Assembly (NCBI GenBank): GCA_019359435.1
Contig: JAHHHI010000061.1
Span: forward strand, 1 to 64,000
From: Kaiparowitsia implicata GSE-PSE-MK54-09C
GTDB lineage: Bacteria; Cyanobacteriota; Cyanobacteriia; Elainellales; Elainellaceae
Direction: 5' to 3'
Length of the DNA: 64,000 nucleotides
Shown here: positions 58,159 through 60,444 of the stretch, piece by piece
Layout: each line of letters opens with the position of its first letter
Numbering within the stretch: the stretch's first letter is position 1
Translations under genes and position numbers: made by a program
The notes under the pieces: generated by a model
What the model saw: the letters and a program-made list of their open reading frames with translations, nothing else
Told to the model about the DNA's origin: nothing
Database searches by the model: none

Positions 58159-58533
58159 ATGCATATGACCCGCCTGCCTCTTACGCTGCTTGCCATTGGC
58201 CTTTTGGTGGTGCCTGCCTATTGCCAGGAAGAGCCAATCATCGACGAATGCGCGCCCACCACCTTGTTTCAGGCTTTTGGCTTAGAAGACATCGAGGGTT
58301 GCACAACCGCGGACGTCTCCGGCGATCCCGCCGAAGGCGACGTCGATAGCCTTGAAATTAATAGGGTTTCTGAATCGGCAAAACTGCCTGGGAATAATCG
58401 TGAGGCAGCGTTGGCACATGCGAATGATCGCAGCAATGGTGCGGTTAATGCCGCTCACGGTCCGAGCGACGGAGAGACGCGAGGCAATTCCGGCAACAGC
58501 AATGCCGGCGGAAACGGAGGCGGTCGTCCTTAG
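58159..58533 (+). CDS. Small secreted protein with Asn/Gly-rich tail
   Basis: 124 residues from ATG 58159 (GGAG four bases upstream; ATG 58165 possible). Signal peptide MTRLPLTLLAIGLLVVPAYC-QE, then an acidic segment with two cysteines (IDECAPTT, IEGCTTADV) and a hydrophilic tail ending GNSGNSNAGGNGGGRP. No domain is recognised. The plan of signal peptide, Cys pair and low-complexity tail is shared with the protein at 2784. The leader of the VUT gene follows directly. Confidence 0.65.
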   Translation: MHMTRLPLTLLAIGLLVVPAYCQEEPIIDECAPTTLFQAFGLEDIEGCTTADVSGDPAEGDVDSLEINRVSESAKLPGNNREAALAHANDRSNGAVNAAHGPSDGETRGNSGNSNAGGNGGGRP

Positions 58534-58540
58534 GCCCCAT

Positions 58541-58642
58541 CTGAGCAGACGGGAATGAGATTGCGGACCCTTGCGCGGGACCACCAATTCCCCCAATGAG
58601 AGTCCTGCTCAGGTCTGTGTTGCCTGAAAGCAGGAGAAAACC
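58541..58642 (+). ncRNA. Candidate translational riboswitch before the VUT-queF operon
   Basis: The 5' leader can form two exclusive structures. In one, CTGAGCAG (58541-58548) pairs with CTGCTCAG (58605-58612), closing a folded domain with GGGAAT/ATTCCC (58551-58556/58587-58592) and CCC/GGG (58568-58570/58577-58579) inside. In the other, TCCTGCTCAGG (58603-58613) pairs with CCTGA-AA-GCAGGA (58623-58635), burying the ribosome binding site AGGAG (58632-58636) of the VUT gene. This is how translation-type riboswitches work. Genes for preQ1 transport and synthesis follow. It does not match the consensus I know for preQ1-I. No ligand test or covariation is available. Confidence 0.45.
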
Positions 58643-59221
58643 ATGTCAAATACGCCTGGCCTTCTTTGGAAGGTCGAGGGCATAGCTCTCATTATCGCAT
58701 TCACCCTTACCGTGCCTTTGGCCAACTGGATGATTGGGAATGTCGGAACAGTGTGCGTTCCGGGAGGTCCTTGTCTTGTTCCCGTGGCGCCCGGCCTCAT
58801 GGCTCCCAGCGGTGTGCTGGTGGCCGGTCTCGCATTTGTTCTTAGGGACTTCGTTCAACAGCGCCTGGGCGCCATTTGGGCCTTTGGCGCCATCCTCGCC
58901 GGCGCCATCATTTCGGCGGCAGTGGTGCCACCGGCTCTCGTGGTCGCCTCAACCGTCGCCTTTTTGCTATCGGAACTTGCGGACATGGCGGTATTCACGC
59001 CGCTCCAGCGTCGCGGGCTACTTATGGCGGTGTTCGCATCAAGCGTCATTGGGCTCTTTGTAGACACCCTGATCTTCTTGCAACTGGCTTTTGGAAACGT
59101 AGACCTGCTGTGGGGACAGGTCGTAGGCAAGGGCTGGATGGTGCTCCTGGCGTTGCCACTTGTTCATGTGCTGCGGGCGCGCCGCAATGGGCCAACCGGC
59201 CTGCTGGAGGCGAAGGTATGA
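58643..59221 (+). CDS. VUT-family (queuosine precursor) transporter
   Basis: 192 residues, six membrane helices. The VUT/YhhQ-like pattern is visible: LANWMIGN near the start, [48 protein letters not shown] and [16 protein letters not shown]. YhhQ imports queuosine precursors in E. coli. The ATGA overlap with queF makes a role with preQ0 or preQ1 very likely. Its ribosome binding site lies in the sequestering hairpin of the leader. Confidence 0.85.
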
Positions 59222-59679
59222 GCGATCAACATTTGCATTTGAGCCAGCTTGGCCACGACATCCGGGCACCCGCGGACCCACAAGCCGCAGTTTTGGAAAG
59301 GGTGCCCAATCCGCATGAAGATACAGACTATTTAACCCGGTTCACCGCGCCCGAATTCACATCCATTTGCCCGGTCACCGGCCAGCCCGATTTCGCGCAC
59401 CTGGTCATGGACTATGTCCCCGCCAAATGGCTGGTGGAATCTAAGTCTCTCAAGCTCTATTTGACCTCCTTCAGAAATCATGGCGCCTTCCATGAAGACT
59501 GCACGGTTGGAATAGGCCGAAGGTTGGTTGAATTGCTCGAGCCCCGCTGGCTGAGGATCGCTGGCTACTGGTATCCACGCGGTGGCATCCCAATCGACGT
59601 ATTCTGGCAGTCCGGACAACCTTTGGAGAACGTCTGGCTTCCCGAAACCGGCGTTCCTAGCTATCGCGGACGCGGCTAG
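59218..59679 (+). CDS. queF: NADPH-dependent 7-cyano-7-deazaguanine reductase
   Basis: 153 residues, the single-domain (type I) QueF. Catalytic Cys51 and Asp58 in [13 protein letters not shown], the QueF motif [22 protein letters not shown] with Glu74, and [10 protein letters not shown] near the end. It reduces preQ0 to preQ1 in queuosine tRNA modification. Its ATG overlaps the transporter stop by four bases, so import and reduction are expressed together. Other queuosine genes (queC, queD, queE, tgt) are not in the window. Confidence 0.95.
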
Positions 59680-59734: not shown

Positions 59735-60016
59735 CTAGTAAACGGCTGCTTCACCGTCATCAATCGGTCCCACTGGCTCTTCGATCGGGTCGGAGAGTGG
59801 GGGGCCGCCGGCATTGCCAACCAGCCGGTCATTGCCCTGGTTTCCATCAAAGCCGGAAATTCCGCTATCGTTCGTGTGACTTTGTCCCGGCCCCGCCATG
59901 TCAATGGTGTCAACCGGGGACGGGACATCCCCGCTTTCTATAGCTACCGCGGGCGTTGCAAGGGCTCCCAGCATAGCTAGAGGCAAAAGGCAGGCGAGGA
60001 AGGTCCGTTTGGTCAC
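59735..60016 (-). CDS. Small secreted protein
   Basis: 93 residues from GTG 60016, with GGAGACCAAC upstream. Signal peptide KRTFLACLLPLAMLGALATPAVA, then a short acidic chain (SPVDTIDMAGPGQSHTND, GFDGNQGNDRLVGNAGG, ending DDGEAAVY). The GNDRLVGNAGG stretch faintly recalls RTX calcium repeats but is a single copy. It is one of three short exported low-complexity proteins in the window. Function unknown. Confidence 0.65.
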   Translation of the reverse strand: MTKRTFLACLLPLAMLGALATPAVAIESGDVPSPVDTIDMAGPGQSHTNDSGISGFDGNQGNDRLVGNAGGPPLSDPIEEPVGPIDDGEAAVY

Positions 60017-60215
60017 GTTGGTCTCCACAACACGGCAGGATGGAACTAGGCCGCTTCCGGTCATTGTCTCCACCAGACCTTGCGGGACGTTTCTTTGGTT
60101 CCGTCGCCTTTGTGCAAAAGTGTACATGCTACAACCAGTGCCTGTCGGTCACACAGCTGTGCCCCCTTGTCTCGAGCTGTCCATGCTCCTACACATGTAA
60201 CAGCAGGCTTGCCTG

Positions 60216-60364
60216 CGAGAGTTCTCAGGGCGGGGTGAAACTCCCCACCGGCGGTAATTGTGCTTTCGAGCACATCAGCCCGCGAGCGCCCATCCGTTCG
60301 GATGGGGTCAGCAGATCCGGTGTGATTCCGGGGCCGACGGTATAGTCCGGATGGAAGAGAACCG
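60216..60364 (+). ncRNA. FMN riboswitch (RFN element)
   Basis: All conserved blocks are present in order: TTCTCAGGGCGGGGTGAAA at 60222, CCCCACCGGCGGTAAT, AGCCCGCGAGCG, GGTCAGCAGATCCGGTG, TTCCGGGGCCGACGGT, and TAGTCCGGATGGAAGAGAA at the end. It lies about 80 bases before the ribD start and senses FMN to shut off the riboflavin operon. Confidence 0.97.
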
Positions 60365-60444
60365 ATGATCGTGCACGCGCGCATTCCGGCCACCGGACTG
60401 CGGGTGTTCGTTGTCATTTGCCCTGGGATTCGTCAGTTGCGACG

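Follow-up and report, generated by a model that had tools for sequence, protein, structure and literature searches.

Known RNA control of the queuosine pathway consists of three classes of preQ1 riboswitch. The mRNA of thrS carries hairpins that mimic an anticodon arm. The tRNA-guanine transglycosylase (TGT) reads U33-G34-U35 and ignores N36; it should not exchange an A at position 34, and Q-tRNAs carry a purine at position 37. In the parts of the published reports available to us, the preQ1-I riboswitch is described as an H-type pseudoknot that pairs its loop with the Shine-Dalgarno sequence and in which a conserved C, directly 5' of the 3' strand of the stem, reads preQ1 (PMC10622847, PMC11625349). 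Hairpins H1 and H2 of the thrS mRNA are read by ThrRS (PMC3858243), and yeast HisRS binds a putative anticodon mimic (PMC6542539). Isolated anticodon hairpins are substrates of TGT, and the TGT dimer binds more strongly to hairpins in tandem; a 2026 cryo-EM study of the E. coli enzyme reports two bound anticodon arms and a preference for tandem hairpins (PMC13416341). The same source gives the RNA-TAG hairpin and, in a title, virF mRNA as TGT recognition hairpins, and a title in its reference list names U-G-U recognition by the enzyme (PMC13416341).

The locus described here lies in a window of 64,000 nucleotides, the whole stretch of DNA that was analysed. A gene for a VUT family queuosine-precursor transporter occupies 58643-59221 on the + strand (Pfam PF02592, Vut_1, above cut-off) and is followed on the same strand by queF at 59218-59679 (QueF-II, preQ1 synthase; TIGR03139 above cut-off), the queF start and the VUT stop sharing ATGA. 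Against TIGR00697 of NCBIfam the transporter product (P0001) scores 32.9 bits, below the cut-off of 50.95. The earlier note had taken the operon to encode a queuosine-precursor transporter and QueF, and the Vut_1 and QueF-II matches, with the sub-cut-off TIGR00697 match, bear this out. The Shine-Dalgarno sequence AGGAG (58632-58636, + strand) lies 6 nt 5' of the ATG at 58643. Touching it, at 58601-58636, is what is almost certainly a conserved RNA element of about 36 nt, composed of a helix P1, a 1x3 internal loop, a 5-bp helix P2 and a 7-nt loop of the form Y-U-R-U-N-Y-N. All of its parts are on the + strand. The 5' strand of P1, CCTGC (58604-58608), is complementary to part of the Shine-Dalgarno sequence and covaries with the 3' strand, GCAGG (58630-58634), the two being matched by folding and pairing statistics. 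P2 joins CAGGT (58610-58614) to GCCTG (58622-58626), as seen in alignment and pairing statistics, and the internal loop comprises 58609 on the 5' side and AAA (58627-58629) on the 3' side. In the loop CUGUGUU (58615-58621), U58616-G58617-U58618 match U33-G34-U35 of the Q-tRNA anticodon loops and 58619 matches N36. Since the 3' strand of P1 in the window overlaps AGGAG, this anticodon-like arm adjoins the ribosome binding site; across 13 hairpin-bearing VUT leaders the 3' end of P2 is 16-21 nt from the start codon.

The hairpin resembles the type III preQ1-I riboswitch of the E. coli yhhQ leader in being a small element at the Shine-Dalgarno sequence of the same kind of transporter gene. In contrast to that riboswitch, it is built of two stacked helices joined by a 1x3 internal loop, lacks the preQ1-reading C and has no plausible Rfam match at its site. 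At the equivalent position, before the 3' strand of P2, 24 leaders carry T (20), C (3) or A (1), so that the preQ1-I hallmark is absent. At E up to 10, nothing in 58300-58900 matched the preQ1-I, preQ1-II and preQ1-III models (RF00522, RF01054 and RF02680), nor did the whole window or 10 relatives yield a match to them at gathering score. This agrees with the remark in the earlier note that the site does not follow the preQ1-I pattern. The only gathering-score match to Rfam in the whole window was an FMN riboswitch. Matches at E up to 10 within 58300-58900 to mir-8229, HOTAIRM1_3 and ASpks look like chance; that of HOTAIRM1_3, at 58612-58632, scored 14.7 bits where the gathering score is 37.

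The shared hairpin was first found in 13 of 80 VUT relatives whose upstream DNA was read, and covariance models built from 11 (R1) and 19 (R2) sequences were run on whole genomes in sets that overlap. A match was counted as a member when VUT or QueF also matched in its locus. By this measure 27 genomes of Alphaproteobacteria and Alcaligenaceae carry the hairpin, at 29 loci in total and always 5' of VUT-queF or of queF; the loci include a Pelagibacterium plasmid (L227) and one, L128, with a short VUT and a QueF that runs off the contig. With R1, 15 of 20 chosen genomes had a match at E up to 1, and the 14 matches above 36 bits all lay 5' of VUT. The same model matched in 13 of 136 genomes of the family of Devosia marina (G147), all members, and in 4/87 (3 members), 5/200 (3) and 4/198 (1) genomes of the families of G159, G156 and G158, respectively. 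An Alphaproteobacteria sample returned the seed genome alone (1 of 385), a count that may miss members as 16 candidates per genome were scored. R2 matched in 26 of 199 genomes of the order of G151 (6 members), 20 of 151 of the family of G155 (3 members) and 1 of 20 of the family of G151. R1 matches of at least 28 bits were all members; with R2, L170 (30.1 bits) and L171 (28.3 bits) were not, and L144 (27.3 bits) was. Loci L132 and L134-L138 and weaker matches, including L170 and L171, were set aside, as these loci of about 3 kb held no VUT or QueF match. By record title or taxonomy line the members fall in Devosiaceae, Cohaesibacteraceae, Rhodobacteraceae, Hyphomicrobiaceae and Alcaligenaceae; we take Pseudovibrio to belong to Stappiaceae and Mesopusillimonas to Alcaligenaceae.

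Presence of the hairpin follows queF. Every VUT locus with queF at most 100 nt downstream carries it (13 of 13, at least 35 bits), and it was found in none of the other 67 of the 80 (best score 18.2 bits). The 13 are not independent, since L020/L021 and L023/L024/L093 share their motifs; among the 67, the contigs of L055 and L092 stop no more than 80 nt from VUT, which leaves room for a queF just beyond them. Eleven of the 67 have queF elsewhere, ten of them 2.1-2.6 kb downstream and one (L087) upstream, and lack the hairpin. In five loci (L123-L127) the hairpin stands directly before queF with no VUT between, which identifies queF as the gene shared by all loci. No hairpin was found at ten plasmid queF loci that lack a VUT match (L228-L237). 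The sole adjacent VUT-queF pair without the motif is L018, a second pair in the source assembly (G000, contig 67, 3355-4330), whose VUT is broken over several frames. Spread by phage was considered and set aside: nine viral contigs hold the 17-nt core with no VUT or QueF in the DNA examined, and the hairpin is missing from 22 viral VUT loci. In the literature, as represented by titles and the opening parts of abstracts (for three papers, by term), no description of the hairpin was found, in work on TGT and on mRNA mimics included, which is not proof of absence.

Alignment A3 contains 24 leaders in 21 distinct rows. It leaves out L021 (motif identical to L020), L024, L093 and L129 (motif identical to L023) and L128, which is one nucleotide shorter. 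Positions C10, G12, U16, U18, G22, G26 and G30 are invariant in A3, C10 and G12 belonging to the 5' strand of P2. The internal loop varies on its 5' side and in the sequence of its 3' side, which measures 3 nt in the 24 aligned leaders and, by eye, 2 nt in L128. Over the 21 distinct rows, the ten pairs are standard in 92.4% of cells as against 85.2% in shuffles, and pairing drops to 21-40% when the partner is slid along A3. P2 is paired in 100% of cells. P1 varies: columns 5-33 are CG in 9, GC in 6, AU in 2, GU in 1 and other in 3 rows, and in 10 of the 21 rows its middle pair (columns 6-32) does not form. Four of five covariation measures exceeded all 500 shuffles of A3; the fifth, further pair types, showed no excess over them (305/500). 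RNAalifold, with no structure supplied, recovers nine pairs, all but 6-32. On a QueF tree (FastTree) every one of the 9 double changes in the ten pairs was compensatory, which gives 0.9 compensatory changes per pair where 518 other column pairs average 0.04 and slid registers total 0 or 1; there were also 14 one-sided changes that keep a pair and 6 that break one.

Support from folding of single sequences is equivocal. The energies of L023, L123, L081 and L131 are not clearly below those of shuffles (z 0.29 to -0.88). When the transcript starts at column 1 of A3, L123, L124, L125, L126 and L142 favour other best folds; when it starts at column 6, the probability of P2 falls to 0.09 in the window and to 0.05 in L019 and L122, and many other leaders retain P2. 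A putative promoter at 58571-58599 was drawn by eye from conservation, with a possible -35 at 58571-58576 (TTGCGC, + strand) and -10 at 58594-58599 (CAATGA, + strand). By eye, TTGC recurs at the -35 in six of seven Devosiaceae VUT leaders, L227 having TTGG. The -10 is a weak match to consensus whose register is common to the CAATGA, CTATCG or CTAACG of relatives. The spacer, counted by eye, is 17 nt in these seven leaders except for L227, where it is 16 nt. A generic promoter scan returned no promoter for this site. Transcription would begin at or just inside P1, give or take several nucleotides and, the promoter having been placed by eye, the extent of P1 depends on where transcription truly starts. 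In the queF leaders of L123, L126 and L127, just before position 1501, and on the other strand in L124 and L125, we noted by eye an inverted repeat and T run resembling a terminator. It stops at most about 30 nt from the hairpin, so these leaders must be very short.

The earlier note had proposed a riboswitch in which 58605-58612 alternates between pairing with 58541-58548, which frees the ribosome binding site, and with 58623-58635, which buries it. Both pairings can be drawn, and a conserved structured RNA at a likely site of translational control stands; the exclusive switch between them does not, because the upstream arm is unconserved and probably not transcribed. The far pairing is exact over its 8 bp, but as a regulatory pairing it fails in the relatives: within the upstream 120 nt in seven of them no exact complement of the same core exceeds 6 nt, so the far arm is absent, and by eye the corresponding region of L019, L020 and L122 is unrelated sequence. 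Furthermore, 5% of shuffles equal it, a Watson-Crick helix of at least 8 bp arising in 50 of 1000 mononucleotide shuffles of 58534-58642, and the arm is located 5' of the putative promoter. Folded by itself, 58538-58617 does adopt the far pairing, slightly better than shuffles (-27.4 kcal/mol, z -1.74, 11 of 200 as good); extending the segment to 58534-58660, so that both arms are included, removes the advantage over shuffles (z 0.34), and the best fold then omits that pairing. We give the alternating riboswitch almost no credence. The near pairing fared well. The hairpin pairs AGGA of AGGAG and is conserved and covarying in relatives, and 58600-58645 forms a single 12-bp hairpin with an AA bulge at -16.7 kcal/mol (z -2.84; one shuffle in 200 did as well). 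Covariation in related leaders, which the earlier note had named as a check, is present for this pairing as compensatory changes.

P2, at about 5 bp, and its loop of 7 nt have the shape of a TGT substrate in all 24 aligned leaders by comparative structure, single-sequence folds being less clear. The 33- and 35-equivalents, U16 and U18, are each present in 24 of 24 leaders. Position 17, the 34-equivalent, is G in 19 and A in 5 (L029, L036, L081, L130 and L131), with three changes between A and G by parsimony. Position 19, the 36-equivalent, is open to G (11), U (12) and A (1), with C in the excluded L128, and the 37-equivalent is a pyrimidine throughout (24/24). The element is like the known TGT recognition hairpins (the tRNA-Tyr anticodon stem-loop, RNA-TAG and virF mRNA) in its 5-bp stem, its 7-nt loop and, in 19 of 24 leaders, a central U-G-U, and unlike them in the A-bearing loops, the pyrimidine at 37 and a stem whose sequence is conserved. 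TGT was found over cut-off in 26 of 26 motif genomes, a set without the Pelagibacterium of L227. As all 14 control genomes have TGT too (10 over cut-off), its presence says little; additionally, the single TGT of the source assembly may belong to another organism than the window contig.

Six leaders carry tandem hairpins. In L029, L041, L130, L131 and L133 a strictly defined second hairpin lies upstream, with the same stem and 1x3 internal loop and a loop of 4-6 nt, and L081 has a weaker one (18.1 bits). The strict copies, 5 in 24 leaders against 0.01 expected from shuffles, keep CAGG/CCUG and have no UGU in the loop. Retention of the stem without UGU counts against the loop as the only thing read.

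Taken together, the results make control at the RNA level by some protein or ligand very probable, and from the place of the hairpin we infer that it acts on translation of the operon. Because the loop sets U-G-U where TGT reads U33-G34-U35, we favour a protein of the queuosine pathway, TGT foremost, as the reader. That the hairpin is a translational operator read by TGT is a tentative proposal from computation, which we consider quite possible without regarding it as probable; we likewise infer the start of the transcript, TGT as reader and the direction of control. The VUT-queF leader would then consist of a single short hairpin that runs up to the Shine-Dalgarno sequence and serves as a translational operator for queuosine-precursor salvage, with P2 and its loop mimicking the anticodon arm of a GUN tRNA (U33-G34-U35-N36). 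When GUN tRNAs are fully modified they would not compete for TGT, which would sit on the hairpin and block the ribosome; when queuosine is short, unmodified tRNAs would draw TGT away, and VUT and QueF would be made. Such an operator would be like those of thrS and yeast HisRS in that a tRNA-binding enzyme is predicted to read an mRNA hairpin. It would be unlike them in that the presumed reader, whose binding is a prediction, modifies tRNA and is encoded outside the operon. An extended form, in which TGT governs its own substrate supply through the anticodon-arm mimic and perhaps inserts preQ1 at G58617, so that modification of an mRNA base would report preQ1 supply, seems to us unlikely.

The association with queF, the covariation, the invariant loop uridines, the purine at the 34-equivalent and the free 36-equivalent all favour TGT, as do the precedents of thrS and yeast HisRS and, given the preference of the TGT dimer, the six leaders with tandem hairpins. 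Against it stand chiefly the five A34 loops, the upstream copies that keep the stem alone and the equivocal folding, and also the pyrimidine at 37, the hairpin-less L018, the covariation measure without excess, the six pair-breaking changes and a conservation of CAGG/CCUG in P2 that exceeds the known needs of the enzyme. We rank TGT first among possible readers, followed by a new small riboswitch and by another RNA-binding protein. In a very small riboswitch, the loop and P2 would bind preQ1, preQ0 or queuine and the ligand would stabilize P1, keeping the Shine-Dalgarno sequence hidden. P1 does pair Shine-Dalgarno bases in the Devosiaceae leaders, and preQ1 riboswitches reportedly control queCDEF, queT and yhhQ (PMC11625349), the last through type III preQ1-I (PMC10622847). 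Furthermore, no more than 8 of 26 motif genomes have QueC above cut-off (long sub-cut-off matches occur in G1204 and G235, and some genomes are partial), so that an imported precursor is probably the relevant signal; dependence on import is likely in the remaining motif genomes. We hold this reading fairly doubtful: the few conserved unpaired bases all fall in one 7-nt loop, the internal loop varies, no conserved tail or pseudoknot partner was seen in the leaders, and no plausible Rfam match was found at the site. As the conserved unpaired bases are confined to an anticodon-like loop, a protein such as TGT is at least as likely to be the reader as a small molecule.

The conserved stem could instead be what is recognized, with QueF on its own mRNA, or a dimeric regulator, reading CAGG/CCUG and the 1x3 loop, which some leaders would offer twice. 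Only QueF is present at all 29 loci, and the upstream hairpins, the strict ones and that of L081, fit a stem reader, but such a reader would leave the conserved U-R-U of the proximal loop to be explained separately, and we know of no RNA-binding activity of QueF. We regard this alternative as doubtful. The position of the hairpin, at what would be the 5' end of the mRNA and in contact with the Shine-Dalgarno sequence, would also suit a passive hairpin that protects the mRNA or fixes a low rate of translation and senses nothing; neither invariant loop bases nor restriction to queF operons would be required of such a hairpin, which makes this reading improbable. Finally, P2 is a near-perfect inverted repeat near the presumed start of transcription, as a DNA palindrome for a transcription factor just 3' of the promoter would be. 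The covariation of P1 through several pair types, the asymmetric 1x3 joint and the unequal spacing of the half-sites (7 nt in the main hairpin, 4 or 6 nt in the upstream copies) speak against a DNA operator, and we consider it very improbable.

With the hairpin the queuosine pathway gains a candidate regulatory RNA that is small and sharply defined and that ties salvage of a base to the use of that base in tRNA. If TGT reads it, an enzyme of tRNA base modification would govern a natural operon by anticodon mimicry, for which we know of no earlier case. As to its surroundings, the operon is flanked by two short frames on opposite strands, 58159-58533 and 59735-60127, which look secreted by eye and matched no Pfam family in the stretches scanned. 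VUT and QueF of the window are 82-88% identical to those of Devosia, and VUT matches in other genomes of the family of the source assembly reach 30-36%; judged by these sequences, the window contig, contig 63 of G000, may have entered that assembly as contamination from Devosiaceae. The FMN riboswitch of the window lies at 60217-60366 (116.9 bits), upstream of riboflavin-gene frames from about 60418, and FMN riboswitches are also found 3' of VUT-queF in L019 and L020.
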